A stretch of 64,000 bases of DNA from Microbotryum silenes-acaulis (Eukaryota; Basidiomycota; Microbotryomycetes; Microbotryales; Microbotryaceae). The notes under the pieces are model-generated. The model searched no databases and was not told where the DNA came from. It saw nothing but the letters and a program-made list of their open reading frames with translations. Below are positions 15,373 through 47,017 of this stretch, one piece after another; position 1 is the stretch's first letter, and every line of letters begins with the position of its first letter. Location: assembly GCA_003665825.1 (NCBI GenBank), contig QPFY01000015.1, positions 787,763 to 851,762 on the forward strand, written 5' to 3'. Both the position numbers and the translations under genes were made by a program.

Positions 15373-15457
15373 TTCGCAGCCAGTCGCCGAGTCCTACGCG
15401 CGAACATCCGTGGCTGCTGTGTCCTATCTATTCCTTGCCGTAACACGAGGACAAGAA

Positions 15458-19984: not shown

Positions 19985-21343
19985 CAATCTTCCCACGACA
20001 ATCTTCCCACGCACACAGAAGCTAAAGCGTTCCGCGAGAACGCCCGGTCGTACAATAACGCGTTGTCGTTTACTTCGCTCGCTGCCCACTGGGACCAAAC
20101 TCAAGTGGGCACTCTAGGACCTCCCGTGTTTCGCGTGTTCGGTCGCCTCTATCATCGACTCGGTGCCCTGATCCCTGCCATAAATCAACGCCCAGCCTTT
20201 GCTCGGACATGGCTCATCGACCCGGCCGAGGCCACCGACACTCGACTTGGACCCGACGGCGCAGACAGTCGCATACAAAGATCTACGTTGACCAAGCTCG
20301 AGTCCATGTTGCGCACCGGCAATCGCTTTGTGAGGAAGTTCGCATCGGCCAAAGCTCGCGCAGGTTGGGATACGGCCAAAGAGTGGATCCTGCGCCTCTG
20401 CCTCCCGCCAGGCCGAGACCGACGCACCCACAACCTTCCTACGTCAAGCACGGAAATGGCGATGCTTATCTGCGATTCCGACACCAACACGGGAGATCCT
20501 AGACCGCAAGATATTATTCTCCAGGTGCACGGTGATCGATTCCCGATGGTCGGCCCAAGTACCAAATTGTTAGCTCGCTCCATCCGTCTGCGATGCTTCT
20601 CCGGTACCCACTACTCTTCCCCGCGGGGGAAGATGGCTTCCACCCCAACATTCCTCTTTGCGGATTCAACCAAGCTGGGCCGCCCTTCGCCGGAAGACCG
20701 CCATGATGAGGATGAAGACGACGAGGAAGAGGACGAAGAGAAAGGTGATGGTGAACGTAAGCGTCTTCGGCTCTTTCTCGGATGTTCCATTCTGTTTAGG
20801 CGCAGGCACAGACTGACATAGAAAGTTTAACACCTAGGACGAAGGTCAAGTAACGGGGGCTGAGGTGGCGAGTCTCGCGTTCACAATTCTTTGCGTATTA
20901 CTTGCACAAACGCGTCGAGTACTGCTCCATCTCGCACTGCACCCAACGTCCCTTCCTGGAGTTCGTGATCGACGGGTACTCCCAAGTCGAGACCGATCGA
21001 CTCAACTACATCCGCTGGCATCAAGAAACCCTGCGCCTCATCACCGCCCAAGGCATCAACGGCTTGACCCTGGACCAGATTGGACGTTCGATGATTGTGG
21101 GGTCGACGTTCAAGAATAGCCCGCGCGAGGGTCACGCAGCGTTACCAAGATGCGATGGCGTGCGTTGTCAAACTTGGAAAGCCTCCGCTGTTCATCACGG
21201 TGACGTGCAATGGCTGGAAATCAAGGCTACACTGGGGCCGAACGACAAAGCCTGCAACCGTCCGGTTCTCATCGGTTCTCATTGCACGAGTGTTTGAAGC
21301 CAAGCTGAACCGACTCTGCGACGACGTTTTTGGCAACAAGTAA
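19985..21343 (+). pseudogene. Helitron Rep relic (N-terminal and HUH-proximal parts)
   Basis: Broken pieces of a Helitron replicase in shifting frames. The Helitron-like N-terminal region is at 20029-20580 (FRENARSYNNALSF, FRVFGRLYHRLGALIP, LCLPPGRDRRTHNLPT). It continues in another frame at about 20590-20705 (YPLLFPAGEDGFHPNIPL), then at 20890-21115 (YYLHKRVEYC, PFLEFVIDGYSQVE, IRWHQETLRL), then at 21130-21343 (QRYQDAMACV, GKPPLFITVTCN, FEAKLNRLCDDVFG). Frameshifts separate the pieces, and no HUH motif or helicase follows. It is a different Helitron lineage from the one at 23-43.6 kb but matches the inverted relic at 47.3-47.75 kb. Confidence 0.8.
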
Positions 21344-21434
21344 CGGCGATGAATGGAGGATGAATGGAGGATGAGTGCCGAATTGTTTCATTGCTGTTGT
21401 TCGTATTGTGTTTTCTTGACTTCCGCTGGAAATC

Positions 21435-21520
21435 ATGTAGACTGTTCGATTCTTCTGCTGTTTGAATTTCTTCCTCCCGTTAATTTAACGGGTTCCCACT
21501 GGTTTTATTCTATAGTTTTA
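21435..21520 (+). repeat. Repeat shared with 46085-46165 (inverted)
   Basis: The stretch with CCTCCCGTTAATTTAACGGG, followed by TTCCCACTGG and preceded by TTTGAATTTC, recurs in reverse orientation at 46085-46165. Both copies lie just downstream of related Helitron relics, so they are probably 3' flanking parts of the same relic element. Confidence 0.6.
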
Positions 21521-22514
21521 AGGATAAGGATAAGGATACCGTCATCCCTAAGCACAGCCATGTCAAGTCATAACTCACGCATGCAGTGTCACCAGCTGAT
21601 GGTGTGGGATTTGAGGAGCTAACGGAAAACTACCAAGCAGCAATTCCCTTCAACTCGTCCTCTTTGAATGTCAACTCTCGAGTTATTTTTCTTCACCAAG
21701 AGCACAGGTCATGAAGTTACTTACTCGAATCCTTAGCTATGCTGCATGCTGCAGCCATTTCTTGAGAAGACTTGTCCCGTATTCGTTGCAGAGCTTCCAC
21801 GACGACCGCTTCGAGTGTCGCGAGCTCGAGGCCGATTTGTCTCGAGCACAGTTCGAGTCGGCCTACCCGTTCGATGTCCGCATCTCTGAGGCTGAATGGG
21901 CGGTTGGTTGACGTCATGAAGGTATATCAGCGGGCTGCTCCCCTAAACGTTTTGCTGTTCGCGTCAGTTACTACACGGGAGGCATCCCTGTTGAGGGATT
22001 GATCAATCGACACGATCTTCCCGAGCATTGTGACAACTACTTGAGCCGTGTCGTGGGCCAGGACCGTGTGACCATAGTTACCTTCGGGACACTTGACTAT
22101 TTCGTGGCCGTCGGCCTTCAGGGAAGAGACGGTCGTGCGTTGTTTCGCGTACATCGCGGCAAGTCGATCGACGTCATCGACTGACAGAGCTGTTCGTTTT
22201 CCATCCGCGACGTTGTAAGATGGCTGTGTTGAGGCTTCTTTCATGAATGGCGATGGGATGAGGTGTGATGGGTAAGGTGTGAAGAGCAGGAGGGCGAAAG
22301 ATGGAGAAGCCTGCGCGTCAATCCCTGAAGGTTTCATTTCGAAAAATGGGGGGGTCCCAGCCTCGAAAATGTTGAATTCCATACACTCTTGCTTAGATCG
22401 ATCTCCAACCCGCGCCAAGCCCAGCCAGCTGCGCGCCGCTTGGACCCCTTTTGGACTTAGAGATATTTCGCCAGAAGCAACAGTTCTGGATCTGGCTCAA
22501 CAGTCAATGGGCAA
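21521..22514. other. Region with small uncertain minus-strand frames
   Basis: About 1 kb where no gene is secure. On the minus strand a 66-codon frame (21917-21717: ...LRDADIERVGRLELCSRQ...) is helical and looks coding. A frame at 22418-21927 contains SVDDVDRLAAMYAKQ. They could be exons of one small gene, but an in-frame TGA directly precedes the ATG of the 66-codon frame, so no simple splice joins them. I do not recognise either. Confidence 0.3.
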
Positions 22515-22883
22515 CAGCTGTCGACCTTCATGCACTTCTACTTTGAATGTGACCATTCACGTGAGTTCTGGCGCCTGAACTTGCAGCTGCTGAGGGTTGC
22601 ACTTGGCCAGGCAGGTGATTTCGAACCTGGCGAAGTTGACTCTCCTCAGATCATGCTTGGCCTTCCTCGGGTGCGTGGCGGAAGTCCTGACTCTCGGACC
22701 TACATCGTCGTTCAGGTCGTTCTTGCGATTGCTTTCAACAAGCTCTACCTTGCTCGATGGCATCAGCACAAGGAACAAATTCCCCTACCAACCCCGTACT
22801 CTCTTACTCGCGAAGTCCGCTCGCATCTCAAATTCCGACTTCGACGTCTGCCAGACGGCGAGCTTCTGGACCAGATGATGTGA
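22515..22883 (+). pseudogene. LINE ORF2 C-terminal fragment
   Basis: Reads MHFYFECDHSREFW then a helical region ending LPDGELLDQMM and a stop. HFYFEC followed by W is the second half (H-x4-C) of the zinc-knuckle at the end of non-LTR retrotransposon ORF2; compare HYFFDC...W in the intact ORF2 at 54.67 kb. No reverse transcriptase precedes it, so it is a 5'-truncated remnant. A CT-rich tract follows. Confidence 0.65.
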
Positions 22884-22941
22884 CTTGACGTTTTCATGAG
22901 TACGGAGTTTCTGAGTTTTCTCTCCTGATTTTTCTCCCCCC

Positions 22942-22948
22942 TCTCTTC

Positions 22949-22979
<31 letters not shown>
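22942..22979. repeat. (CT)n microsatellite
   Basis: About 38 bp of nearly uninterrupted CT dinucleotides, just downstream of the LINE fragment and just outside the Helitron 3' end. Confidence 0.9.
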
Positions 22980-23008
22980 GATTGTGCCTATTCTTTAACA
23001 CCATGGAA

Positions 23009-23036
23009 CTAGGTGCGGCGGCGCGCTCCGCGCGCC
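23009..23036 (-). other. Helitron 3' terminus (hairpin + CTAG)
   Basis: On the minus strand GGCGCGCGGAGCGCGCC (23036-23020) forms a 7-bp-stem hairpin, followed by 7 nt, then CTAG (23012-23009) and T. Helitrons end in a short hairpin and CTRR and insert between A and T, so this fits exactly. Three CGTTGTAAC-type direct repeats lie just inside (23046-23077). Confidence 0.75.
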
Positions 23037-23173
23037 ACCTCACACCGTAACCGTTGTAACCGTTGTAACCGTTGTTCAAGTCGGGAGAAGACTGCGCGAC
23101 GACGATGAAATGTACAGAGCCTTGATTTCATCACTGAACTACTTTTTTGTCTATGGAGCTTTGAGATAACTCT

Positions 23174-23496
23174 TCATTTCATCAACTCAAAAACCATTCT
23201 GTTTTCTGTTACATTGTCCGCTTCTCCATTCTCAGTCTGATGAAGCAAAACTCTGACACCGTCCACATTCGTTGCTCGGGACAACGCGACGTACAACTGG
23301 CCGTGAGAAAAGACGGGCGTCTCTAGACACACTCCTACCTGCGCGAGTGACTGGCCTTGCGACTTGTTGATCGTCATAGCCATTGCGAGCGGAATCGGAA
23401 ACTGCGTCCGATGCAGAGTGAACGGAAGCTCAGCCAATGACCCTGTCTTCAGCGTGATCCGTGGCAACAAAACGGGCTGTCCAGCATGATCTCCTG
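23174..23496 (-). pseudogene. Helitron helicase C-terminus (severed part)
   Basis: Encodes [35 protein letters not shown] and [12 protein letters not shown], the Pif1/RecD-like helicase motifs V-VI that close Helitron proteins, then a stop. It is the continuation of the reading frame that breaks off at about 39093. Element A begins a few bases upstream of it. Confidence 0.85.
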
Positions 23497-23919
23497 TGAG
23501 AATGATGCAGCAAAATGGCCACGCGCGCGAACCCGCTTAAGGATTCGCCCGAGATTACGCGCGCTTAACAGCGCTTAACGGTGCATAAGATGTGCATAAG
23601 GACGCATACGCGCGCGGCTGAATTGGGCGAACCTCATAATCCGCGCATAGCCAGCGCTGCGATGACTCGCCCTGCTTAAGGATCGCTTAACGCGCGCTTA
23701 ACGTTTGACCTCGCTTACACTTCGCATACGTAACTGCGAAGCCTGTACTTGCACACGAGCGGGCGGATTGCTTTCTTGACCCCAACAAGTTTCTGTGCTA
23801 AAATCCCATCAAAAGGCGCTTCACTTGATTTTATTCAATGAGGCTAAGGAGCATATATTCAGGAAGTAGTTGGTCCATATAACACCGTAATTTCTACAAA
23901 AATGACTTTCCAGCAAAAT

Positions 23920-26900
23920 CTATGAGTCCGCCACTGGAGGCCGTCGAGCAGGCCGCAATGTGCCCTGCAATGCTTCACGTAATAGGTTTATGGTGAAATG
24001 ACGCCCAAGGTGACGAAAAACATGTTGATCCTGGGCGAGATTCACCACAAACTCCCCATTCCATTGATCCATCACATTCCGAAAATCCAGGTCGGGTGCC
24101 AATTCCGCATGGCCTAACAACGGCTGAACAAATGCGGGGCGCAATACGTCCTGAACACGGAAGATTTGTTGCACACACTGCCCATCACTTTTCAATCGCT
24201 TTTTCAGCACCGGCTGTAGGATTGCCAGATTTTGTTCACTGTTTGGGCACTGCAAAGGCGGGGATTAGGACAGATTCGTAATGGTGTTCGAACTTAGCGA
24301 CCATGATCACCGCACGGTAGTAGTACTCACCCACTCAAATTCATCTCCAATGCAAAGCTCGTGGCAAGTGCCACCTATGTCCAAGGTAAAAATACCTCTC
24401 AAGCGGAAGATCGTGAAAGGGAGGACGAAGTGCCAGGCTCTGTCCTTGAAAGTCGCATGGTTGTGGTATTTGCCGATTGGACCGTAGTTCAAGTTGTGCA
24501 CAAAGACACAGTCAAAGCGAGTACAGTATCCATCCTGATTGCCGTGCTTGTAACGAAAGGTTGCTCGTATGACGTGTTTGATGATATCTGAGCGTACATG
24601 AGACAAATCAGTATGCTGAGGAGACCAGTGCAGCGTTCTCCTAGTACCAGCTCACCTGCGTCATCCCTCGTCTGTTCCGGTGTGTTCTGATATATGCGGT
24701 TGGAGACTTTGAAGCTGTGATACCACTTTGCTTTCTCATCGTCCAAGGATTCGACGTCTTCACTTGAGTGTCCAAATTCGAGGAGGTAGCATGTTGTCTA
24801 CAAGGCCAGGTGCCACATACGTCAGTTTGACGCCTGTTGAACACTCAAAGAAGAGAAGTGGACAGTGGACCGCACTTATTTGCGAGCTGAAGAAGGCGAG
24901 GCTGTTGGAGAGAGACCTGGAGTTCGTTCATCGTGATCATGCATCGATTGTTGCCGGCTGAATGGGATGGCAGATGGGTTCAAAGTCAGCTAAGGGCTAG
25001 GCAAGACTTGCAGTTACAGGCCGGAAACTCACAAGGTCGCGCAGAAAGGTGGAACTCATGTGGAACTGGATCAGGTATGGGTAATATGATTCGATCTCCA
25101 GTAGATCTCACAAGCTTGTCAAGATCTATCACATTCTCCAAAGATCTGATTTTATCGGCTCGTCTTGAGTAGTTGATGAGTTGCGAAGCGGTGTTGCACT
25201 TGTTGCTGGCTCTATATGCGACCTTGACCGAGTCAATATGGGCACGCTTGGGTCGATACAGTAGGTCAGTGTAACGTTCGCTCAAGAATTCTATCAGATC
25301 AGAGACTGACCTCCGATGTGTTTGTATCGGAGTGTACAGGAACGCCCCACTTCTTGGTCCATTCCGCGTAGTGCGATACGGAGTGAAGGCGGGGCCAATT
25401 GAACCCCAATTTTTCGACCTGTCCGTCGACAATTCGAAATCGATCATACGTGTTTCTCGCAAGCTGAAATCCGAAGGCACGGAAAGTCACGTAAGTTGAA
25501 GCATGCAAAAATTCGTTCAGAGGGCATTGACTCACAAACATGTAAGCATCGTACGCAAAATCCATATCGTCTACGTCATCAGCCGTGGCCTCTAGGGACG
25601 TGGCGTACATAATTAGCACGGAAAGCAGTGTCATAATTTGGGCGTTTTCGTCGACGAGGGTTCGTGATTCGTAGTCGTCTCCGATGATCTGAACATCTGC
25701 TTAGAAGCATGTGAATGAATCAGTCAGCACAAGCATTGCGGTCCGAAGATGTAGTATTTTGGAGGCGCGACTTACCCCACACACCGGCAGGAAAAATCTG
25801 CGTGATCCCGGCAGAAGATATCAGGATCGACGCTACTATTAAAAACACATGAAGTTGAAAGAATTCACTCACTTTCATCAAGTCGCGCGTATGTTTACCG
25901 GTCCAGTTGGAATGCTGAAACCCGTCCTTGAAGCGACGCAGTTGTGAATGAAGGGGCATCAAACGCATACTGTTGTACAATATTCGACATCTCAGATCGC
26001 ATGCTTGTTCTTGATTGATTCAATCAAACTTACTTCAGCTCGATTCTGCCAATTAGTTCGTCGAGTTTTTGCTTGTTTCTCCTGGGATGAGCATCAGCGG
26101 CGATTTGTATGTCTCAATGAACAAGTCGTCAATAGTGATGTCTTTCACCATGCCTGATGAGAGAGGACGAGGAGAGAAAGAAAGGATCAATGAAAAGGAG
26201 AAGCCGTCTATAGCTAGCAACACTGACCTTTGATCAGCTGGTGGAGAGGATCAGCCACCATGAGCTCATGCCCATTGACCCCTAAATAATCCCAGACGGT
26301 CTGAGCCTCAGGAAGGGACTGATTCAGTGAACAGGAGCCGAGGGGGAAATCCTGCAAAATTTACCCTGCCAAGGTGATAGCCTTCTTCTTTGGCCGCCTT
26401 TGTCTGCGCTGTGATTGTCCTGAGCTGGCTTGCTGCCCTTCTGACTTCGTAGGCATCGGCACTCGTACGAGGGGCGGCAGGGCCTTCTTGAAGCTTGAGT
26501 GGCTCTTGTACACAGCTAGCAGCGCAAACAGAGTGAGCCCATGTAAGTTAAGTCAACTCTGCAGGCGATCAAACGCTAGCTGTCGTCCACCTACCAAGGA
26601 ACGTAGCCCTGAACAAGGGATGTAAGCCAACACTCCTCCAGATAGTCAACAGATACCGGTCCAAAGTACACCCTGATGTATCGATAGTGGCCATCCACAA
26701 ATTGGAAGAGGTGTCGGCCTGAAAGAAGGTGTCTGATCGGAGCCCACACTATCCTGTAGGATTTGAGCTATTCTATCAGAGCTCTCCGCTACGTCGACCG
26801 AGCCGAGACAGCTTACTCTAGAGCTCGATGGAGCACCCTGCGTTTGTATATACGGAACATCTCGTCATTGCCTTTGTCCGCCCCTTGGATTTGAGTGGGA

Positions 26901-28379
26901 GGCGGATGCCACAGCATTAGCAACAGCCAGCCCACCGTTGGCAAAATAGAAGCCCCGGGCGATACTCACTTTCCACTTTAGGAAGGAAAGCTATAACGAC
27001 CAAACCGCCATGGTTTTCACGTTTGAGGAATCCGGCGTTGACCCCTAGAGACATATACACAGGATGGGCTGAGGCAGTCCCAGTTCCGATCGACAAGACA
27101 GTTGAATCCGAGCTGGTGTCAATGTGAACGGCCACATCGGTCGGGTTGTCGAGAATGTCCTGCGGACGGCTACTAGTCAGTTCTCTTGATGGACTTTGCG
27201 CCGGGCGATTTCAACATCCATCCAGCGCTTACTTGCATTTCCCACGCTTTGTCTGCGGTATGGGGCGCCCCATATACCCGTTGCTCCTGACCGTTTGATT
27301 TGACCTCGAACACCTTCATGGGCCGCAGATGCTGGTGACCGCAGAATACGGGATTGGAGAGAAGATGTTGGAGCACATGATGCGCGTCCCGACATCGGAA
27401 CGTATGTTCCTGTGAATAGAGGTGTCGAGGTTAATCGGCTCGAACCTGCTCGTGTCCCTGTCCTGGACTGGCAGCGCTTACCAGCTGCAAAAATGGAAGT
27501 TCAGCAGCACTATTCGACCACCCTAAGTCCTCCGCAGTTATGATGATTTTTTCTTCGCGCCATTCAGTGTGATGAGCTAAGTAATGGAGGAGCACGATTT
27601 AGAGTTAGGTGGAAGATTGGAGAGCTCAAAACACTTGTACAAAGCTCATCATAGGGTATTTTTTCGATTGTAGATCTGAGTTGAAGCCTGTTGCTGAAGG
27701 CATGGTCCGCCTGCGGAGTGATATCTCGGGACTTAGATGGCGGATATGACCCCGTTCCAGCGTCCACAACTTCGGCCGAACATACCTGAAGAAACGTGTT
27801 GTTGAAAGTGACCATCGCATTGAATAGAGACTCAGACATTGAGCGAGTCAACAGTGCATACTGATAATCCTTTTCGTCCTGGAACGGATAAAAGACGTTG
27901 TTCGGGTCGAACAAATGGGCATGCGGAACCGTTGGAGGCGGAGTGTGTTCGTCACAAAGTTGTCCGTCGGCTCGGCTCGCCCAGCCTGCGAGTGGAGGTT
28001 GTTCTACTCGAAATTTTCTCTTTTGGCGAGCGTCCCACTCGGGCTGGTCATCGAGGGTATGATCATACTCAGAGTCTGATGAACTGTCGCTCGAGGAGTC
28101 GTCATCGTAGTCGCTACCGCTCGAGTTGAAGCCATCGACGTCGCAGTCGGGCCAACCGTTTCTGAGGTTCTTCTGTCGTCTGCGGCGTCGGCGAAAGAAC
28201 TCTTGGCGAGAGCGCTGTTGTCTAAGAACTTGGAGGTGACTTCGTTCAGCAGCCGATGACGTGGGTAGTACGCGGTCGAGCGGTCGGGGCCTTTCGTGAA
28301 CGTGCAAATGTGCTTCGAGATTGCGCACATGGTGGAATGATCTCTGACAACCAGCAATGTTGCATCGGAATTGACTCAT
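23920..28379 (-). CDS. Plavaka-like transposase A
   Basis: Multi-exon transposase on the minus strand. It starts at MSQFRC (28379), with an N-terminal C2H2 finger C-x4-C-x12-H-x3-H (CNIAGC...AHLHVH). A basic and then Ser/Asp-rich stretch follows, then PFQDEKDYQYALL (a Plavaka-type landmark, about 27870), the block VFCGHQHLRPMKVFEVKSNG (about 27340) and SAHPVYMSLGVNAGFLKREN (about 27060). Next come RRFKDGFQHSNWTGKHTRDL (about 25900), LGFNWPRLHSVSHYAEWTKK (about 25400), and the last exon VQDVLRPAFVQPLL ... NLAQDQHVFRHLG with stop at 23920. It is homologous throughout to transposase B. Exons alternate with about a dozen short introns; borders were not all fixed. No frame break was noticed in the conserved blocks, so it may be intact. 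I assigned no catalytic residues. Confidence 0.7.
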
Positions 28380-28789
28380 TTGCAAACGAGAGCCTTCATG
28401 TTCAAGCGACATCCCGAAGGCCTGTACGACGAGTCTACTGTCAGCGAGAGTGGACTGAAGCTGGAGGAAGGCAAGGGACGCGCGTAAACACAGCCTGAAT
28501 GCAGGCATATTTTCTCGAAATGCGCTAAGTTGTCCAAAACTACGCCGCGCAGCTAGCGCGTTGCGGCGCGACGTGGCAGCATAGGGGCCACTGCATATGT
28601 TGGCGCACGCTAAACCGCGCCCTAAAAAAACACCGAACAACAAATGCGATGTGTCACGCGCGCTCGTTCTGTTTACCACCTTTTGACTCCCTCCCTCTTC
28701 CTCCTCACTCACTCACCGTCCCTTCCTCGCCTGTCGTCTTGTCTCGGTCGTAGCCCTTCCACCCAGTGCCTGTCCAGCGATCTGTTCAC
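28380..28789. promoter_or_regulatory. Divergent promoter of element A
   Basis: A 410-bp gap between the divergent starts of transposase A (28379) and accessory gene A (28790). Element B has the matching arrangement (32252-32674, 423 bp), so shared control of the two genes is likely. The half next to the accessory start is pyrimidine-rich. Confidence 0.55.
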
Positions 28790-29762
28790 ATGTCTTCTCG
28801 ACCTTCTCGAGCGAGTGCCACCGCGTCTGTGCGCCTTGCTACAATGCGGGACCGCGACACGCCGGCGGACCGACGGGAGAGGGCGCAAGCCCAGCAAAAA
28901 CGAAAGGCGGCGAACACGAAGGCGGCCGACAACAAGCGGCGGCGACTCGACGTCGCTGTCGGTGTGAGCCAAATCAACGCAGCGAAGAAGCAAGACGCTT
29001 GGCAACGCCACAAAGCCGCAAAGGAGCAGAAGGAGAAGTACGTGCAAGTGTGATCTCTTAACTCTACTGTATCTTTTCTTGAATGTAGGTGAACTGAGGC
29101 CTCGCCCGTCCTTGTTTCCAGTGCACCCCCAGCAGCCCCTGCACACGCGTCCAGGCTTGCGGTGACACGCACCTCTTCTCTTCACACCGTTCATGCAGAT
29201 ACCACACGTCAGCTTTTCCGTGCACAGCAGACTTCTGTTGAGCCATACAGCGGCGAAGATAGCGGCGACGAGGACTCCTATATCGATCCTGCTATAAAGG
29301 ACCTTGTGTTGGGTGGACAAGCCGAGGACCCCTGTGACTTTTCGGACAACGGTCAGGACGAGGCAGACTCGGACGAGGGCGAAGACTTAGTCGGACCCAC
29401 GGTTGTGGATGGCGCCGATGGGGCCGCACCTGTCGCCATTGTCAACAAGGTAGCGACCAGCATCATGGACGATGATGACGAAAGCGTCATTCCAGGCGTA
29501 GTGAGTAGCATTCAAGCAGGTTTCGGTACTTGCGTGCAGGCATTCAATGGGTCGTATCAACACTTGCAGACACCCCAGCCCAAGGCTCAGGCTCTACAGT
29601 CCTCAATCGCCGGACAAGCTTTAAGACGCAATCCACCGCAAGGTAGGGTTGCCAGTCGTACGCCAGGCTCGTCTTCGTCGTTTGCGAGATCGTCGCCCCT
29701 GGTCAAAGGGAACCTCGATGACAATGCCCCCTACGACGGGGCGCACAACCGCAAGCCAATAG
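28790..29762 (+). pseudogene. Accessory gene A, 5' part (interrupted by element B)
   Basis: Exon 1 starts MSSRPSRAS and is Lys/Arg/Ala/Gln-rich (TPADRRERAQAQQKRKA..., ends near 29037). A later exon (from about 29199) is acidic (GEDSGDEDSYIDPAIKDLV..., QDEADSDEGEDL), then Ser/Gln-rich up to NRKPI. There element B is inserted. The N-terminus resembles that of accessory gene B (ADRDTVSDRRDQRAVKTKAK). The exact splice between exon 1 and the acidic exon was not fixed. Confidence 0.6.
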
Positions 29763-29774
29763 CATCAGCAACTT

Positions 29775-29960
29775 TGCCACTCGCGCTTTAGTGCAATTTA
29801 GCGCACTTTAGCGCACTTTAGCGAACTTTAGTGAAATTTAGCTCGTTTTCTATAATCTCCGGTGGGTCGCTAAATGACACTTAAAAGGCACTTAACTTAA
29901 GTGCCATTTAGTGCTTCCGTGCCATTTAGTGCACTTTATAGTGGTTTTGCAACAGCAACC
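29775..29960. repeat. Subterminal repeats of element B (left)
   Basis: Repeated words of the type GCACTTTAGCG, CACTTTAGCGAAC and GCCATTTAGTGC on both strands. The right end carries the same words at 37440-37505 (GCGCACTTTAGCG, GCCATTTAGTGCC). Such subterminal arrays are usual transposase-binding sites in CACTA-like elements. Confidence 0.65.
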
Positions 29961-30073
29961 TGATTCAGTGCTATTATGTGTATAAGCGCACTTTAGCGAC
30001 CAATGCTATGCCTGGTAGTACTTCTTTATACTTATATTCCACTTCTAATTCTGCAGTGCTGAGTACTAAGTTA

Positions 30074-32251
30074 CTACCAACTAAATAACTCATTCTGAGC
30101 GACCGCTTCTTGCGTATCAATCGGGGCAAAGTTTGCCGAAGTACCCGACCTCCGTCCCCGCCTCGAGCGAGTTCTCGGCCACGCTGCCTCCACACTCGCC
30201 CAAACGCGCTTCGTGATCAAGTCTGAACTTGAGGCATACCCCCCGCTGCGGAAACGGCTCATTATGCCGGCAACGAAAGGTGCTTGAACCTCGCCCGAAA
30301 ATTCCGCATTTGAATTGAACACCCGCTCGAGAGACACGCGCGCCTATCGATGAGACCAGTAGACAATGTTAGGTCGAACGCCAGCCGGATGATCCCGGAG
30401 AAGTCTCGACTCACCGCAGCATAAGCGTGACACACTAGCCCAAAAGCGATGGCGTGCTGGTGCGGCTTCGTTAAATCAAGCGTTTCCCAGTCGAGAGAGG
30501 CCAGCTTTTTGCTCTTGGCGCGGACTGCGAACACGGCGGCGAGAGTGTAGAACAATGGGTTTGACAGGTCCTGTGGCATCTGGCCGGCCGGAAGGTATTG
30601 CTGCAGGCACGCAAAAAGTGAACACCGAAGTTCAGCGCTGCGCGGGAGTACAACTCTTTGAAGCTCACCCTGTAAGTGGGGCCACAGCGAAGTTCCAAGA
30701 ACCCCTCCGAACAATTCTTAGCCTCGCTAAGAAGGGACGTGGCTGATGCGGTTGCCAGTTCCCCGCCGCCCTCGTCAATTTTGTACGCAGCCAGTGTAGG
30801 TACCTCGGCCTCCGTCCTCATCATCGATAGTACCGCCTGGTTTGTTGCCCGCACCTGTTAGTGAAGTGTAGGCTCGCTATGTCAGTCTGTGACCCAAGCA
30901 GGGAGAAATTCGGGTAGTGTGAGACATACTTTTGCTACCATCGCGTCGGTTACCTCGTAGGTTTTATCGTCGGTTACGATCGGATAAGTCTTGGCGACTT
31001 GCAAAAGCTGGTCACGAATCTGCGACGCCGTTACCCATAATCCAGATTCCTTTTGGATATTCATCAGGAAAATGTGCTTGTACCAGACTGCGGCGACCTC
31101 GGCTTCATCCGGGGGTAGAGGGTCGGCCTTGACATTGATTCGGTTCCGTCGCGCAGAGGTGCTCCTGGACGACGGCAACAAGCCTTCGCGAGCTGGAAGT
31201 TGCCCGGGGTTCCGCTCAGATGCAGATGATGAAGCGGATGCCGTAGGGGCTTGGGTAGTACTCGACCTGACTCTGGACGCGGCCGAGGATGCGACAACCT
31301 GCCCGCATGCAAGGATCAAATGGCAGCAGTCAGGCACTAGTTGCTTCTCAGGGAAGAAAAGACAATCTCACCTTCTCCTTGCAAGCCCTCGCGAAGTCTG
31401 CCAGTGAAATATCAGCACAAAAACGTGGTGGCAATTGATGCTAAGAACCACCGTACCGTCTCCGTCCTCGTCCTCGCCCTCATCGGCATCATCATCGTCG
31501 TCTTCGTCGCCGCTCTCGTCGCTGTCGCTCTCATCGTCGTCCTCACTATCATCGTCGTCCTCACTATCATCGTCGTCCTCACTATCGTCTTCGTCCTGGT
31601 CTTCTTCTGATATGGTATGCGCGGTATAGACAGTAACCGCTTCGTAAATATTAACTCAGTGCGATGGTGTAGACCTGGCTCACCGTGCATCTCGATCGGA
31701 CGACTGCTACGGCCTACGCGGCCGTTGACGACTAGCAGCGTCTCAGTAGAGGATGCAGCAGGGTCGGGTAGGGTGATCGAAGCTTTAGATCTGCAAAATA
31801 CTGGCGCGACTCAATGTCTGCTGCCGCGCGTCACGATATGATCCACGCCACCACTGAGCGCTGAACTCACTTGCGACCCTTCTTACCCGGCTTGTCGCAG
31901 GCGAGAGCAGGAGCGTGTTCCGAGTCTTGACCGCGTTTGTTCCTATGGACGTACGAGATGAGTTTGACATGCCAGACACATAGATAGATGGTATTAACCG
32001 AAATCAAAGGCTCCTCACTCAGGAAGGTCTGCGACAGACTGATAAGCATTCGCGCTGGCGAGGGAGATGGCCGCTTTTCTGGACTTCGCATTTTTGGCCT
32101 GCTTGGCCGCCTTGCTCTGCGCTCGAACCTGCTTGGCCTTTGTTTTGACCGCGCGTTGATCCCGCCGGTCGCTGACGGTGTCCCGGTCGGCGGCTACCGC
32201 CTTGGCCACACCTTTCGATGCCTGCCGGGCAGGTGCCATGGATCGATTCAC
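30074..32251 (-). CDS. Plavaka accessory protein B (DUF6532-like C-terminus)
   Basis: Product not assigned a function. The first exon (from 32251, MNRSMAPARQASKG) is strongly basic. A middle exon (about 31620-31445) is an Asp/Glu/Ser repeat tract. Then come VWYKHIFLMNIQKESGLW (about 31100), TYEVTDAMVAKV (about 30960), PQDLSNPLFYTLAAVFAV (about 30560), DLTKPHQHAIAFGLVCHAYA (about 30460), and the last exon SGEVQAPFVAGIMSRFRSGG with stop at 30074. The blocks align one by one with accessory gene A. The NPLFYTL...HAIAFGLVCHAYAA part resembles the DUF6532 domain seen in basidiomycete mobile-element-associated proteins; this is a tentative match from memory. It is divergent from transposase B. Confidence 0.6.
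31440..31620 (-). repeat. 18-bp acidic coding repeat inside accessory gene B
   Basis: GTCGTCCTCACTATCATC-type 18-bp units repeat about three times on the plus strand, within a longer GTC/ATC-rich tract. On the minus strand they encode SEDDDD units inside a 45-residue Asp/Glu/Ser run. The plus-strand hydrophobic frame across it is only its antisense shadow. Confidence 0.7.
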
Positions 32252-32674
32252 AAGGAACCGGTCAGGGCGAGATGGACAGGCGAGGGTGGGCGCAAGAGGG
32301 ACGGGTGGGGATCGTTGGCGGCGGCAGTGAGCGGGAGGAAGGAAAAAGAGGCCCGTGACGGCGCGTGGCCTTGGTAAACAACACGCGGCCGTGGCCTAAT
32401 GCGAGTCACTTCGACGCGACGGCGCTCGCGCTCGCGTCCGAGCAAAGGCCCGGTTCACGCCAAGTTGGAGGGCTGAAGCGCTGACCAGCGGTTCGACACC
32501 CTCTGGCCGCGTGGGCGACGCGCGAGGGAATCTCTTCTGCCTTACTCACAAATCTATTCAAGTCTCGGCCCCCTATCAACAGGCGTAAGAGGCGCAGTCG
32601 ATCCCTCTTGCCTTCGCCGCATAGCGACTTCAATCTACGATACTCGCCGGCCTTCACACTGGCTCTGTCACTGC
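32252..32674. promoter_or_regulatory. Divergent promoter of element B
   Basis: A 423-bp gap between accessory gene B (minus start 32251) and transposase B (plus start 32675). It matches the 410-bp gap of element A in position and length. GC-rich, with no obvious TATA box. Confidence 0.5.
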
Positions 32675-35600
32675 ATGGATCCAGGGCCGCGCGTGGCCTA
32701 CGCATGTGACTTTGACTACTGTGAGCGTGAGTTCAGGTCTCTGCGGGGGTTGTCTCTGCACAGGCGACAGATACATCGGCCGCCTGTCGACAAGGAACCT
32801 TGCACTGCCGACGAAGCCGAACAACAGCGGCTCGCTGCTCTCACATGGAACGCGACGGTTCAAGCCAATATCGAGTACCAAAATCGTGTGCGGCTTTGCG
32901 AACGGCTCGGCATCCCATACGACTCGGACGTCAGCGCCAGCGAATCGGATTCTGACGCGTCATCAACGGAGTCGGACGACGAGGGACGGGCCAAGCAAAC
33001 ACATTGGGACCGTCGGCAGCATCGGAAGTTCCGGGCTGAGTCATACCCCGAGGCGGGATGGGCGTGCGACGCCGAAGGGAACTACTGCGAGACCCAATCG
33101 CCTCCTCCGACGCACGACGCGCGCCTGCATGATCCGACCAATCCCTACTTTCCTTTCGAGGACGAACTCAGCTTCGAATTCGCCAGACTGGCGGAGAAGA
33201 ACCGCTTTTCGAAGAGGGTCTTCGATGATCTATTGCACCTTCATAGAAAAGCCGGAGTGAGTACGAGTACTACGGCGTTCACTGCCTGTCCAGGCGCTGG
33301 AAGCTAGACTGTGTCGGGTGGCCACTGCAGCGAGCTAATCAATCGATCAACTAACTCTCACAGCTCGAGTATCAATACAAGACTCGCAAAGCTTATCGTA
33401 AAATCCTGAAAAAGGTTCCTTATGGTGCGTTTGTCCAGGTCTTGGTGTATTCTATCCTCATGCTGAGTTTGACTTGATCATCCAATTGACGTCCGCAGCA
33501 AAGTGGACCGAATGGAAGAAGAAATCCTTAAAATTGACGAGAGGAAATCTCGGTATTCCTGAGGGGTTCGGCAGTCTTCCTTTCTTGGACCAGGTGAGAA
33601 CGTTCATGCTACAGCCGCGGATACCGCCGCTGACGTGCGGCGGGGCAACCCGAATGATTTCGCAGTCGTTCGACTACTATATTCGCGATGCGGAGGCGGT
33701 CCTGCGTCATCTTCTCTCGTCCACCGCCTTTTTGGGCCACCAGAGCTTTGCTCCAGAACAACTGTTCCAAGTTCACAAAGACGGTTCCGAAACCCGCTTT
33801 TATTCCGAACCGCTTACAGGCACAGAGGCCTGGGACTTTCAGGTGAGTCGACCTACTCCCTGAGCCCAGCACCCCACCATTCGGCAAGCTGACTGATATT
33901 GCAACAGTGTGCTCTACCCGATAGACGCCATTTCGGCATTCGCATCGATACGGGGCACGACGCAACAGCACTGGCCATGGGAACCGGCACAGCCTCCGCC
34001 CATCCGATCTACCTCTCGCTCGGAAACAACGCCGGCTTTCTCAAGAGGGGCCCTTATGGGGGCATGATCCTCATTGGATATTTCCCTAACATTACTCGTT
34101 CGTCTCCGTCGGACCGCTGGGGTGCATCAATTGGCTGAAAATATGATGACTGACCAGATAAATGAGTTTTGCAGGCACTGACAAAGGCAACGACGAGTTG
34201 TGGCGTTTGTTCACTCGACGAGTGAAACATTGCGTACTCGAGTGAGTTGCCAATTCGAGTCGCAACTGTTTCCCTGGCCCCGCCTGACCTATGAACCTTT
34301 TAGGCAATTGTGGCAACCGATCAAGCGCTTTCTCACCGAGAGTCATTTGTTTCTGTGCGCCGACGGCCACTATCGTTTCGCGCGCGTGTACTTCGGCCCA
34401 ACAGCTGTCGACTATCCGGAAGCGTGCTGGTTGCTGGGTGTGGCATCAGGGCATGTCGTTTGGTAAGCCTCGAGCAAGCTATCTTCCATGGGTAGATACA
34501 GAACACTGATGCCTGAACCATGTCGTTGCCAGCTGTACGCTTAAGCATGGCGAACTCCACCAGTCGCCAGGGGAACCGAGGACTAGTGCCAAGTCAGCGG
34601 CCCTTCGTGATGAAGCGAAGCAAGTCGATGGGAGTATGCACAAGCAGATTGCCGCCCTACGGATTCATGGGCTAAATTTCGGTTGGGTGAGTCATGTGCC
34701 CAGGCCGGAACCGCCCGATACCACCAGCGGCTGACGAAGGTTTGCCCGTGTCTTCCCCGCAAAGACTGTTTGGGATGGGCTTGGAATCAACGGTCACAAA
34801 CTTTGCGGTGCGGATTCCCTTCATCAACTGATTAAAGGTATGCGCTTCTGTTCAATGATGTCAAAGTTATACTGTCAAGTGCTAATGTTCGCATCCAAAT
34901 GGTGACAGGCATGGTCAAGGACATCACCATCGACACTCTTTTGATCAGCTTCTGCAAAGACGACGAATCAAGGTTCGTGTTCGATCAGATCACCACCAGT
35001 ATTGGCGCACAGTGAGTGACTCGATCTGCCAAGAGACGCTGATTTGCGACCGAAACCGAGTTCTGACGTACCCATCGAATGTGAACGCGATCTCGCGATG
35101 CCACAGTCTCAGATGCATGCCGATGCATTCGCTGCAACGCCGATTCAAGGACGGCTTCCTGCATACGAACTGGACGGGTGCACATACTCGCAAGCTGATG
35201 AATGTACGTCGCAGATGGATCAGACTGTGACTTGGTTCGCGCTGATCTTGAGGACCAACCTGCCTGGAGTGTAGATTTTCCCCGCTGCGATATGGGGTAG
35301 GTGCCAATTTTCGTCGCTTTTTGTTGACGTCGCGTGAAGGCTCATCGAGGCGCCTTGATTGTCCTGATTACATCGTGCGCAGAGGTGACATGGGTTGACA
35401 AAGACAGGGTCTCTTGCACCATGGTCGACGATATATGCCTTATCATGGCCATCCTTTCCTACATCATCATGCACGCCACTTCTCTTGAATCCACCGAGGA
35501 GAGCTTGGAGGACTTGGAGTTGCTGATTTCCGAATACATGCTAGTAAGTTCACACTCTTGCGTGCGGATACCACTATTTCGGCGAGTTTCAGATAGCTTA

Positions 35601-37167
35601 TGATTCGTTGCTGCTTTTCCTTGGGCAGCTCGTCTCGAGGAACTTCACTCGCGATCGAATGAGGAAGAACGGCGAAGTCACAAACCTTGGGTTCAATTGG
35701 CCCCGATTGCACGCAATAGGACACTACCCCGAATGGACAAGAAAGTGGGGGGTTGCACCGCACTCAAACACAGCGGATGGAGAGGTGAGCTCATGCCGAG
35801 CCAGGTATTTTGCGACCATGAGATGCTGACCAGTCCTGCCACGCATGATTCACTAGCGCGCTCACATCGACTATGCTAAAGTTCACTGGCGTGCCAGCAA
35901 CAAGTGCAATGCGGATGGCCAAATACGTGAAGGGGCTAGCCGTTCGGAGACAATGCGATCTCTTGTCGAAACGTTGACGATTGCAGGGCGCATGGAAACA
36001 ACCTTCGACACAGCCCTGATTCCAATTCCGGCCCGTCCGGTCCGAAAAGTTGCGCTATCTGAGCGAGCTGGTGAGATCGGCATCGGGTCGCGCGAGGTTT
36101 ACGGAGTTAGATAACTCGACACTTTGTCTGCAGGTGGTAAATACCGGCGAATGATGGATCTCGATGCGCTGTCGAGGGCATTGGGCCAAGAAGATCTTGT
36201 AATGCTTGTGAGTTAGATGCAGTACTCTGCACTTGGCCGAGATCGTATTCTGACCCGTTGCTCCAAAAACCATCGCATACACAGACCGCAGACTACCTCG
36301 GATCCAATGAGTATGACGACATTCGGGCTGGATATTTGGCTACCAAGTGGCAGTACAGCTTCAAGATCGGAGGGGCGATGTACAAGAACCCTCCTAAGCC
36401 TACACTCGACGCCGCTAGTGAGTCGGAAGTTTTCCAAATCACTTACCAAACATAACTCATCGCGCTGACACAATGACTTTTATTGAGTTCCGCTCGTGCA
36501 AACGATCTGGGCCAACCCAAATTACCCTTATCGTGGAGAAGGAACGGTCGGTCCGCGCTTTGATTGCGTATTCGTTCACAATTATAGTCGCCTACCACCC
36601 CCGGGTCGACGAGGAGAGACCTACTGGGACATTGCGTGGAACGCCCTCCGGCCCTTCACGGTGTTTCACATCCGAGGAATCTTTTCAGTCAAAGTGAATG
36701 GGTTGTGGCACGGGCTCTGCATTGGCGATGAATTTGAGTGGGTCAGTCGCAGCGTATGGAACCTATCAGGTCTCTAATTGCAGATCTGGAGCCCATTTGC
36801 TGACGCCAATCTCAATGTGCGACAGGACGAGAACGCGGACGAGAACAGTGCCCTTCTTTCGCCGATTCTTAAGTTCCGACGTGGCGCCGATGGCAAGAAG
36901 ATGCAACGCGTTTTTCCTATTGAGGATGTCTTGCGATCGGCTTTCGTGCAGCCACTATTCGGACAAACGGAGATCCCGCCGGAGTGGAATTTCCAGAATA
37001 TCATGGATAACTGGGATGACAAGTTCACTGTGAATCTGGTTCAGGATCAACACATATTTCACCACTTTGGGATGGTGTTTAGCATCAATATTCTACGTGA
37101 TCAGAAAACACCTCGGAATCGCAGGAAGGGGAAAGGGAGGGCGGCGCAAATGGATCTGTCAGAATAG
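32675..37167 (+). CDS. Plavaka-like transposase B
   Basis: Starts MDPGPRVAYACDF with a C2H2 finger C-x4-C-x12-H-x4-H (CDFDYC...HRRQIH). Then come an acidic linker, WDRRQHRKFRAESYPEAGW, PFEDELSFEFARL, and AVLRHLLSSTAFLGHQSF (about 33700). Next are FGIRIDTGHDATALAMGTG and SAHPIYLSLGNNAGFLKRG (33930-34050), LTESHLFLCADGHYRF and VDYPEACWLLGVASGHVVWC (34330-34540), HGLNFGW, and VWDGLGINGHKLCGADSLHQ (34770-34830). The later part has RRFKDGFLHTNWTGAHTRKL (35140), LGFNWPRLHAIGHYPEWTRK (35690), FDCVFVHNYSRLPPPG (36560), and the last exon IEDVLRSAFVQPLFG ... NLVQDQHIFHHFG with stop at 37167. The order and motifs match Plavaka-type transposases of basidiomycetes (CACTA-related) and transposase A. About fifteen short introns; no break noticed, so it may be intact. 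Confidence 0.75.
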
Positions 37168-37530
37168 CCCCTGTCATGAGTTTGGTCACTTGAATCATCA
37201 GTACTATAGCTTCAGTTCTGGTAGGAATCGTGGTATTTTGTAATACTGCAAAACATGTGTCAAGAGCAAATTATGTCTTTATGTATCTATTGCAAGTCGA
37301 GTACTTGGTATACTGATACCTAGAGATTATAATAAGAAGTATAGAAACCAAGGTCCTTACATTGATACACCTCACCACGGCACTGCTCCAAATGTTAAGT
37401 GTCAACTTCATCAAACTGTGCTAAGTTCATCAAACAGTGCCAATTTTAGCGCCATTTAGTGCCATTTTGCGCACTTTAGCGCTCGAGATTTATTTAGTGG
37501 CGTTTAGCAAGTGGCAAAGTTGCTGATGAG

Positions 37531-38744
37531 ATCAAGAGACGTTGGATTCAAAGCCCAACCGCCGACAAGCATCCGACTTGACTCTAGAGCAGAAGATGGT
37601 CGCTGGCGCCTGGTTTCAAACTATTTTCATGCAGAATATTCTCGACGGCCAAGGCCTGTGGCGAACAAAGAGATCACTTTACACCCAGTCTCAGCTCGTA
37701 TCGGAGGTCTACAACGAAAACGCTGAGAGGCCTATCGAGTGGTCATCGAAGATCGCCGACCTTGTGCGGCATTCTTCCCCGCCTACGGTGATACCTTGCC
37801 AGCGCTGACAACACCTGTGTTTCCTTCAAGCAGATCGTTTCGAAGAATCTGGGAGTCTTGAATTTGATCAAAAGGACGGCGCTGAAATACACCTACAAAG
37901 CATACAAACTGGACCCGGACAGGCAACGTGAGGCATCGACCGCCAAGGCCGTACTCTATCTCCAACCTACTAAATGGGCGGTCAAAGAGTTACGTTGCGG
38001 TGCAGGAACGGTAAGCCTTTCCAAAGCCCCGCTACCAGCTCCTTCGAGTGCGATTCAGCGTTGTGGCCATATGTTTTGGCACCAAGCTGCTTACAACATC
38101 TTTCTCCCTCAGGGTGGGGTCGACATGAACAATTGCTCCTTCGAGGCCGAGGATGATTTTCAGAACGACCTTCTATACGAGATCTTTGTTCAGATCGTCG
38201 CCGGCATAAGGAAAGAAAAATCTGCTGCTTTCCAATGGCCAAAGGAAGGTCTCGACCCGAACGACAATGATCATCGCGAGCTTGCATTCGCTCTTTTGAC
38301 TCATGCATATGCCGGCGTAAGTTCCTCAACTGTTCAGCAATGTCCATTTCAAACTACCAATCATATCGTTACATTCTTGCTATGACGGATCAGGTTTGGT
38401 ATGCCATGCAGGTCCTTACGCCGCCCCCATCGCTCCCCGAATCGTCCGACGCTGGCAGAAATGCGAATGTGGCGAAGCAAACCGTAGCGCTCTGGCACGA
38501 GTTCTCGGCCACTCACTATCAGGTTCCCGTCATGGCCATACTGCGTAGGCGTCGTAGAGAAGGCTCTGGGCCTTTTTACTCAGAAGCTATGCAGGTACGA
38601 GTCACCAATCGAGTACAGAACAGCGTGGAAGTAGCACTCCTCGAGGAGTATCGAGGGCCCGGGGTTTCTAGGCGGGGAACCAGTGACGAGATGAGGATCA
38701 CAGCCCAACGGGCTTGCGACTTTGAAGAGTCTCTCTTCACTTGA
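37531..38744 (+). pseudogene. Accessory gene A, 3' part (after element B)
   Basis: Continues the frame of 28790-29762 directly: the codon at the junction is split g|at and reads on through TLDSKPNRRQASDLTLEQKM, then AGAWFQTIFMQNILDGQGLW, KNLGVLNLIKRTALKYTYKA, NDLLYEIFVQIVAGIRKEKS, NDNDHRELAFALLTHAYAG, and the tail ...FSATHYQVPVMAILRRRRRE... with stop at 38742-38744. Introns at about 37765-37832, 38010-38120 and 38317-38393 have GT-AG ends. It aligns with accessory protein B in all blocks, including the DUF6532-like part. The gene is split by a 7.77-kb insertion and so cannot make a normal product unless element B is removed. Confidence 0.65.
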
Positions 38745-39092
38745 CTGTAGTATATGAGTGTAACATAGGTTTATAATGACAACAGATCAGGGGCTGCGAA
38801 GATAAGACTGCCTAAACAGCCGCTTAAAACACGGTCTGTGGTTCGGATAAAGTCGCTTTAGGACCGCTTTACGCCGCATAAGAGGGCTTACGGACCGCTT
38901 TGCGTATGCAAACAAAGCGCGCCGTAAGTGCGCCGTAAGAGTCCCTTATCTAGGGTACACTTAAGCGACACTTAACGCGCGCGCGGCTTAACGAGTGGTT
39001 AAGGGCGCTTAAGAGCAGCTCTAGGCCGCTTAACGACTGCTTTACGAGGTTTCGCGCGCTTACGCGCGTTTGGCCATTTTGCTGATGGAAGC

Positions 39093-42000
39093 TCATGTGG
39101 GAGCGCGATGGAGTCTTCTGTCTTGTTCGCCGAGCCGTCTCCAACTCCTAGGAGCCAATTTGCAAAGTCCTGTGCCTTTGCCCGTTCCGTTCATCAGCAA
39201 AATGGGCACTCGGCGCGCACCGCTTAAGGACGCTTAAGGACGCTTAACAAGACGTCCTTAAGCCTCGCGTCTTGTTAAGCGTCCTTAAGCGGTGCGCGCC
39301 GAGTGCCCATTTTGCTGATGTTTCGGTCATGCGGTCTGCAGCGGCCAGAAGACGCATGTTTGTCTGCGCTTGCACCGTGCCGCTGTTAGTATAGGGTCCA
39401 ACAGTCAGGCAAGGACTACTACTTACAGAGAGATGCAGCACCTCAACTTCCCCCCAGAAGTCGGCATTCATGATGCAAGCGTTGACGATTTGTGCAGGCG
39501 ATGACTTGGGAATAACGGGAAGGCATTGCTTCGGATCTCCTGTGATGTCACAGTCCAACCGGTCAGTTAATCATACTGCCCTGCGCTGTGCTGTTGAAAG
39601 ATTGGTACACACCTGCCAACACAACGGTCACTCCACCAAACCGAGCCGTTGACGATCGCACATCCTGCAACATCCTGTCCACAAGCTGGAAACATCGACG
39701 GTGCTGCATCGGTGCCTCGTCCCAGACGATCAAGTCGCACATCCGAAAAAGCTCGGCGAGCTGTCCTTGTTTTGGAACGTTGCACGTAGAGTCGTCGAAG
39801 ATGTCGATCGGGATCTTGAACCGTGAATGTGCCGTTCTGCCTTTTGGCAGTAGCAGTGCAGCAATACCCGATGATGCAACGGCAAGAGCGTATTTTCCCT
39901 CTGACCGAATCCGAGCAAGGATCATTTTTTCCAAGAACGTTTTGCCTGTCCCTCCCGGAGCATCAACAAAAAAGACTTTTCCGCGGCTGTTCAGAATCGA
40001 GTCAAGAACTGTCTCAACAACAACGCGTTGTTCGGCGTTGCAAGACTCGAAGTTGTTCCTCCAGAAACCCTCCAACTCGTTGAGCTCCGCTGCTGTGGCT
40101 GATTCCTCCATGATAAGACGATTTGTTGAAGCTTCGTCATCGAACTGAATCGTTGGCAGCGGCAGGCCGTGGTCTGACAATGAGGAGTCGAGTCGTTGCA
40201 GAATATTGCTGAGCTGCAGCAGCCCCCAGCTGGCTACATGCTCGGGTGTGATGATCGGCTGTCGTCTTTGGTTTCGTAGCTGGTATTCGACGTCTTGGGT
40301 GAGGTTGTCATAGTGCTTTGTCCATAACTGCGCCGCGTTTGTCACTCCATCATCGGCCGTTAACAGCATGGCAAATAGGTGTCGCAGCTCGTGGCCAGTA
40401 CGGAAGACCGCTGCTTCGGTCAGACATCTGTCGGCTTCAGCATTGTTGCGTAGGAGCCCCCGTTCGACACAGGCTTCCCGGAATGTTCGAAACTCAACAC
40501 CATTGAAAGTCCTCAGATCTGCAAACGATGTCGGAGAAGGCACCTTGAGAAGAAGTATTCGCAAGTAGTATCGCTCTCCGCCTTCAGGACCACAAAAGTA
40601 GATTCTTCTGATTGTCCGGTTGTCAACTTTTCGTGGAACCCAAGCTCGATCTTCGTTGTTCCATCTGAATCGGGTTGGCACGTCGATGTAAAGCAATTCT
40701 TGTGCGTTGTGATCGGGCGGCGTCTTGGCGCACAATTTGATGAATGCGGTTAACGTCGTTTCCGGTGGCGCTGATAAATCTGGTGCTCCCTGATCTGGGT
40801 CGAACCGAACTTCTTGCTCATTCGGGAGGTGCAGCGCAAGTCTGGTCACTGCGGGATCCCGATCGTGCATCCCGAATCGAAATATCCGGTGAATGGCCTT
40901 GGGGGCGCAAACATATCGAGCGTCGAGGAAGTTGTTGATTTCGTCTTGAGCTCCGGGTTCGTCGATCGTGAATGAAGTACGGTCGTGGCCCTTGTAAACG
41001 TAGTTGTACAGGTATTTGATCGCAGCAACACCGCTTGCAATTTCCACGTTGACATGACAGTTGTACTTGGAAGCAAGGAACGGATTTGTTGGAATAACGT
41101 TTGCATCCGTAAAAACTTCTTCTTGCGCTGTGCCCGGGAATTTGACATATTGGTGTATGCCGCGACACCGGTAGTGTGGATAGCCACCGTCTTCGCTGGT
41201 CGTGCGTGGTTGGAGTCGTTTTGGAAACCCTTTGGTGCATTTTCCATGGTCGTCGTGGCAGGTATGCTTGCCGGGACGATCACATCGCCGGTGTAGCATG
41301 GAGTTTGTGATGGTCTCAAACAATGCAGGGAATTTGTCGGGGTCGGGTATTTCTGCGGTCACTATCTTGTCGTAGTTGTCGTTTGTTTTTGGTTTGTCTT
41401 CTGGATCCATGATCAAAAGGATGTGTGCGTGAGGTAGCCCGCGCTTTTGAAATTCGACAACATAGACATATGCAATGACCTGTGCAAAGAATTGAGACTC
41501 GTGAGCATTCTATCCATTTAATATTGACCGCGCCGATTGACATACCTTTCCAAAGACTCCCGGCGCACGATGAACGCCTAATACATCCGCAAGAAGAGCT
41601 TTCAATTTGCCGTGAAAGACCCGTGTTACTATGTCGGGACGGTCGGATGCGGTTTGGCCAGGAAGCAACGCGTTGACGATTTCCGACCAGGCAGGGTTGC
41701 ATGTCATTGTGATGAATATGTCCGGAGCACCAAAAACACGAACGATGGCCATAGCATCTTGGTAAAGTTGGACCATTTGGCGTGGCGATCCGGTGTGTGA
41801 CGACGGTAGAATGACTCTTTTGCCAATCTGCGCGGGATCGAGTCCTTCAGCCAGGCTTGCTTGAAGGGACGAGTACTCTTCGGCTCGGAGCTTTTGCTGA
41901 TTTGTTCTCATCCAATATAGCCGTTCTTGTTCAGTTAATGCCCAGGCGTCCGCGACAAATTTCTGGTACAACCGGCCCCCAAGGAAAAACATCGGGTAAC

Positions 42001-46451: not shown

Positions 46452-47017
46452 CATCAGCAACTTTACCACTTCCGGGTGCGTGGCTAAATCTGTCTAAATG
46501 ACTTTACCGTCTGAATCGTTCTGGATCGTGTCTAGATCCACCACTTCGTCACACTGAATTCGCTTCTATGATGGTTCTAATACCTCGATTACAGATGTGT
46601 CATCGCAACGTGTGTGGACTAGCCTCGCGGCTTGGGTTGGGCACAAGAAGCTTCGTCGATTGACGGAGGTCGGGACCGGTGCTGCTGGGGCGGCCGAGGT
46701 CGCCGCTGAAGCGGCTTTGTTCGGGTTTGATGCCTAATTTGTGCTCTTAGAAGAACGTAGAGTCTAGAAGGTTTGTCTGTAAATGCAATGAGACCATACC
46801 ATTGCACATAGCCCTACCTGAATATGTCATAATTGTTCTGAAATGGCACTGGAAATACTCTGGAAGCTCTGGAAGTGCACTGAATGCCTGAATTTCCAGA
46901 CAAAATCTAGAGCAATCTAGCAGCGCAGAGCTGAATGCGCTTTACGCCCGGATTGTTCTAGATCGGCTCTGAATTGCTCTGAATTGTCATGAAGCGCGCG
47001 TGGTAAAGTTGCTGATG
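46452..47017. mobile_element. 566-bp MITE related to Plavaka-like element B
   Basis: Ends CATCAGCAACTTTACCAC (46452) and GTGGTAAAGTTGCTGATG (47017) are exact inverted repeats of 18 bp and differ from element B's ends at one position (TACC for TGCC). Internal subterminal words such as TCTGAAT, CTAGATC and TCTAAAT recur in both orientations. There is no coding capacity. A 2-bp duplication is not visible (TT left, AA right). Confidence 0.75.

Follow-up and report, generated by a model that had tools for sequence, protein, structure and literature searches.

The 64,000-nucleotide stretch analysed here (the window) is part of contig QPFY01000015.1 of the 29.85-Mb assembly of the anther-smut fungus Microbotryum silenes-acaulis, to which all genome-wide counts given below refer. 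It contains two Plavaka-type elements, Element 1 and Element 2, each consisting of a Plavaka transposase gene and a divergent accessory gene (encoding Acc1 and Acc2, respectively); both pairs lie where the original prediction had put them. The two accessory proteins are homologous, their genes are co-conserved with the transposase genes in this genome, the C-terminal domain of Acc1 is under purifying selection, and each element has its own short repeats concentrated near its ends. We propose, judging the chances to be evenly balanced, that the accessory may be a TnpA-like second protein, which would bind the subterminal repeats of its own element and work together with the transposase.

All gene models are predictions from splice-site scoring and homology. 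Acc1 (617 residues) is encoded on the plus strand in a 5' part at 28790-29762 (exons 28790-29037 and 29122-29762, from the splice model and the empty-site join described below) and a 3' part at 37531-38744 (exons to 37763, 37834-38010, 38113-38316 and 38394-38744, from uninterrupted copies). Acc2 (528 residues) is encoded by nine exons on the minus strand (30074-32239, splice model). The basic N-terminus and acidic middle ascribed to these proteins are both evident from net charge, which is +13 in residues 1-82 of Acc1 and 1-66 of Acc2, but -19 in residues 120-180 of Acc1 and -40 in residues 133-184 of Acc2. The clearest similarity is in the C-terminal domain, which in Acc1 is encoded in the 3' part: the two domains match at 27% over 284 residues (blastp, E=3.6e-16), and their Smith-Waterman score is 173, compared to a maximum of 61 over 1000 shuffles. 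The shared domain that had been predicted is therefore real, and the two proteins are homologous. Two of the motifs by which it had been described, W[YF]xxIFxxNIxxxxGLW and HAYA, occur without mismatch in Acc1 and Acc2 alike, whereas the third is exact in Acc2 (residues 454-471) but requires altered spacing in Acc1. The N-termini align only weakly, with a score reached by 3 of 1000 shuffles, and have DRDTxxDRR in common. Acc1 and Acc2 evolve rapidly and belong to no named protein family.

The transposase gene of Element 1 is located on the minus strand (23941-28379, with its ATG at 28379). Two of its exons were found above the cut-off in a genome profile search with PF18759 (G000:C15:814995-815198 and 814736-814900), and pieces 29-51% identical to the Element 2 transposase reach down to about 23941 (tblastn); its exons and 3' limit are approximate. 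The Element 2 transposase gene (32675-37167, plus strand) is an 18-exon model encoding 1065 residues, with a PF18759 match at E=3.4e-43 (148.5 bits).

The two elements are nested, as Element 2 (29763-37528, 7766 bp) is inserted in Acc1 and separates its two parts. Element 2 has inverted ends CATCAGCAACTTTGCCACT..AGTGGCAAAGTTGCTGATG and is flanked by the target site duplication AG (29761-29762 on the left, 37529-37530 on the right, from flank comparison). Joining these flanks restores Acc1 as a single open frame, and the insertion point is uninterrupted, by DNA match, in 11 other fetched loci (L042, L044 and L047-L055). The left part of Element 1 (23505-29762) was delimited by an end match and by DNA alignment to other copies, and its right part (37531-39087), terminating in ..CATTTTGCTGATG, by its end motif and other loci; at 39087 the match stops exactly in 10 of the 15 other loci compared. 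Near 23505 the inner inverted repeat is retained and the leading CAT is absent in the window copy; 19 of 24 bases are identical between the left and right ends, the top score among positions 15001-28500. CATCA..TGATG termini are accordingly present at both ends of Element 2 and at the right end of Element 1, and altered at the left end of Element 1. Target duplications in the 2-3 bp range accompany Element 2, in the form of matching 2-bp flanks in six of the seven copies examined (local matches 99.4-100% identical). Element 2 has moved recently.

The seventh copy of Element 2 (L015, C2:2300572-2308203) has no matching left flank. Its right flank lies in the Element 1 accessory gene, as in the window, while its left flank is different, suggesting that the nested pair has been copied or recombined. 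The start of C53 (L039) matches the window at 99.6% from about 37951 to 40244; since this match continues past the end of Element 1, the stretch is either duplicated or doubly assembled.

On the basis of the PF18759 domain, the CATCA..TGATG ends and, for Element 2, the 2-bp target duplications, all of them PlavakaB features (PMC12730594), both elements are filed as PlavakaB. The extra gene of some Plavaka families reported there is TET/JBP, whereas the elements described here carry an unnamed second gene.

The two elements also differ in their subterminal repeats, which were found here and formed no part of the original prediction. These motifs were first spotted by eye, and their positions were then tallied in 250-bp bins. 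Element 2 has 13 copies of TTTAG[CT]G, nine in the first bin (29763-30012) and four in the last full bin (37263-37512), with none between. Element 1 has 11 copies of GCTTAA, six in the first bin (23505-23754) and five in the last two bins (38773-39087), again with none between. In a test of all hexamers, the best hexamer common to both ends outscored 300 of 300 random pairs of interior windows in each element. Both elements thus have family-specific repeats near both ends, as TnpA-like systems do.

These repeats bear on two alternative explanations. The main rival, which we regard as unlikely, is that the accessory is a VANC-like anti-silencer, which would bind repeats specific to its element and relieve the element of DNA methylation, or of an attack resembling repeat-induced point mutation (RIP), so that it stays expressed. 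VANC, a variable protein encoded by VANDAL Mutator-like elements (MULEs), which belong to another superfamily, has variable regions, and the short repeated motifs that it recognises differ from family to family (PMC5735166). In Microbotryum, mutation of a RIP-like kind occurs at TCG sites (PMC10502011), and TET/JBP genes carried by transposons have been suggested to counteract methylation (PMC12730594). However, VANC motifs are also found in introns and upstream of genes (PMC5735166), whereas both repeats described here are at the element ends and absent from the bins holding the divergent promoter gaps, although other motifs may exist. Moreover, the accessory has no enzyme domain according to Pfam, albeit that VANC can do without one.

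The promoter gaps themselves, measured from start to start, are 410 bp in Element 1 (28380-28789) and 435 bp in Element 2 (32240-32674, in this gene model). The first agrees with the length originally predicted, while the second had been given as 423 bp; with 410 versus 435 bp, near-equality of the gaps was dropped as evidence. It is distinctly improbable, in our estimate, that the accessory is a transcriptional regulator of this shared divergent promoter, setting the dose of transposase as an auto-repressor or activator. That both families have a divergent gap, of 410 and 435 bp respectively, could be taken in its favour, but a divergent layout is in itself no sign of regulation, and the family-specific repeats are found at the ends and not in the gap. 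As the product of the second gene varies by family, and the repeats at the ends are also family-specific, a TnpA-like role fits better than promoter control.

Several small elements carry similar end sequences. Two palindromic miniature inverted-repeat transposable elements (MITEs) at 14535-14632 (98 bp) and 39192-39320 (129 bp) are Element-1-like, with 2-bp target duplications TG and TT, respectively, and consist of little beyond the Element-1-like inverted repeat and GCTTAA repeats, a point in favour of the TnpA-like reading. Beside the second MITE, the open reading frames indicate a minus-strand gene resembling a Helitron helicase (about 39.2-42 kb). A nonautonomous element of 566 bp (46452-47017) has Element-2-like ends, without a matching target duplication. 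In addition, the first ~119 bp of Element 2 recur as short, MITE-like copies dispersed over 19 places in the genome (e.g. C8:737440 and C13:190910), many of them with the first 44 bp repeated alongside in inverted order.

The association of transposase and accessory gene could be followed throughout the genome. The 58 PF18759 matches were grouped into 25 transposase places and compared with 25 accessory places picked from 82 matches; judged by profile matches, DNA alignments and neighbouring genes, 14 transposases are of the Element 1 type, ten are of the Element 2 type and one (C21) represents a third family, with the reservation that the copies do not stand for independent events. For 13 of the 14 Element-1-type transposases, an accessory gene in divergent orientation is located no more than 15 kb away, two of these pairs being rearranged or partial (C11 and C8:517k); the copy with the fourteenth (C18:402510) breaks off within exon 1 of the accessory. 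Eight of the ten Element-2-type copies include the Acc2 region by DNA alignment, among them the C6 copy in three pieces, and the remaining two (C4) were left unchecked. The third-family transposase is 43-70% identical in pieces to that of Element 2, and beside it is the divergent start of an accessory gene related to Acc2 (41% over 83 residues); beyond this first half, no further accessory match was found in the next 1.2 kb. The conservation that had been noted between two diverged elements is therefore extended genome-wide, and for the first half of the gene to a third family. Apparent head-to-head inverted Plavaka copies were also observed (C18:402510/408400, C11:307.7-312.6k and C4:1391573/1397709), which may reflect aberrant transposition or assembly.

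Comparison of Acc1 with a diverged relative at C11:834k gives a nonsynonymous divergence (dN) of 0.21 and a synonymous divergence (dS) of 1.24 over 301 codons, i.e. a dN/dS of 0.17, a value from a single pair with dS near saturation. The C-terminal domain of Acc1 is under purifying selection. Among near-identical Acc1 copies the corresponding ratio of polymorphisms (pN/pS) is 0.46 over 14 sequences; this value was set aside as a measure of selection, as it is inflated by the decay of dead copies, and the deeper comparison was used instead. Two diverged accessory relatives, at C11:834k and C8:1198k (L069 and L070), match Acc1 at about 50-71% in pieces.

Protein searches for relatives of the accessory identified members in M. 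silenes-dioicae, M. saponariae and M. lychnidis-dioicae. The tentative resemblance to DUF6532 (PF20149) noted originally was not sustained: Pfam gave no match of this domain to Acc1 or Acc2 at E<=1, nor to three domain sequences at E<=10, a search in which filters drop most weak matches. A genome profile search gave no DUF6532 exon either, a weak result since the controls also gave no match. Membership of DUF6532 is therefore rejected at the sensitivity of Pfam. In two Ganoderma species Plavaka and DUF6532 appear in one list of additional domains (PMC8955403), but this does not show that the two are physically linked. The sole weak match of note was an ORC6 cyclin-like domain on Acc2 (E=0.05, at 14.5 bits versus a cut-off of 27, and E=0.018 in a second search), and no solved structure matched an accessory protein at E<=1.

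On the proposed reading, these PlavakaB-lineage elements would be two-gene cut-and-paste transposons, in which a DDE-type transposase and the accessory are expressed in opposite directions from a divergent promoter region at the centre. The family-specific part of the accessory would bind the short subterminal repeats that its own element has at either end, while its conserved C-terminal domain might multimerise or hold the transposase. Accessory and transposase together would then bring both ends into contact, leading to excision and insertion. DNA binding by the accessory, its partnership with the transposase and its necessity are inferences.

Several observations weigh against this reading. 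No relative of the accessory was found outside Microbotryum in three protein searches at E<=0.01, E<=1 and E<=10; these searches need shared 5-residue words, and the latter two scored only the best 7990 and 7999 candidates by shared words, so that absence outside the genus is not established. Pfam profiles gave no match above the cut-off for the accessory proteins, and none of the TnpA/TNP1 type. Two AlphaFold2 runs on the accessory gave all-helical, unusable models with a predicted local distance difference test (pLDDT) score of 39.7 and 40.3. At the ends of Element 1, CGCGCG is also enriched (six and five copies, versus three inside), and the heptamer CGCGCGC is enriched above any heptamer containing GCTTAA; since the interior control windows are in addition largely coding, composition explains part of the hexamer result. 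The link between repeats and accessory is correlational and concerns two families only. The transposases, moreover, have a C2H2-like N-terminus (recognized by eye), which could bind the ends alone.

The state of the genomic copies also weighs against it. Exons 2-5 of Acc1, to which this comparison was confined, are covered to at least 85% in 11 other copies: seven of these are broken by a frameshift, stop or truncation (L044, L048, L049, L050, L051, L054 and L055), while the other four have neither a frameshift nor an early stop (L042, which has a 15-base gap in frame, L047, L052 and L053). Eleven of the 25 accessory places, representing ten loci, have no Plavaka transposase within 15 kb except for a nested Element 2. 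One of them, C11:834k, has a C-terminal domain that is read without a stop in the exon model, and the 4 kb upstream of it yielded no transposase. These ten loci would suit an accessory that is a passenger gene acting on the host, or mere selfish cargo, without a role in transposition. We nevertheless consider this very unlikely, as three element families have homologous forms of the gene in divergent position and it is under purifying selection, and as fragments, a nested copy and a contig end account for several of the transposase-less places; decayed transposases could also have escaped detection.

The TnpA-like reading has its closest parallel in the CACTA transposon En/Spm, in which TNPA recognises subterminal repeats and is required together with TNPD (PMC2613891), by which it is bound (PMC1636069). 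Proteins of the TNPA type and their repeats vary between CACTA families (PMC2613891), and Plavaka has been grouped with EnSpm in the CMCT clade (Kojima 2025, PMC12730594). The likeness thus comprises the same broad clade, two proteins, short family-specific end repeats and a poorly conserved partner. In contrast, the En/Spm proteins come from one alternatively spliced unit instead of two divergent genes, and no sequence relation of the accessory to TnpA was found with Pfam profiles. Nuwa, of the Harbinger type, is likewise a DNA transposon with a transposase and a second protein (PMC12730594), but that protein is of the Myb/SANT type and Pfam shows no Myb/SANT domain on the accessory. No second gene of this kind is described for Plavaka in the portions covered of PMC12730594, PMC8290104, PMC11075540, PMC9674265 and PMC8955403, with supplements outside this scope and a prior description possible. 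The accessory is an unnamed family, and the elements extend the known two-protein type of CMCT transposon. Somewhat more doubtful is the broader notion that PlavakaB elements might be obligate two-component transposons, in which a second protein from an undescribed family co-evolves with family-specific subterminal repeats, each family being mobilised by a key-and-lock pair of its own and the catalytic protein remaining similar throughout.

Within the Pucciniomycotina studied, CACTA elements have been reported in rusts only (PMC12210899), a report that is qualified by the presence of Plavaka (CMCT) elements in Microbotryum. KDZ and Plavaka elements together account for about half of the DNA elements of one mushroom (PMC8290104). 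Plavaka elements are characterised in the literature covered by their transposase, their ends and sometimes TET/JBP. A conserved second gene would change the criteria for an autonomous Plavaka element, and copies with a transposase only would then possibly be dependent. Finally, this recently mobile family offers a test of the co-evolution of accessory proteins and subterminal repeats.

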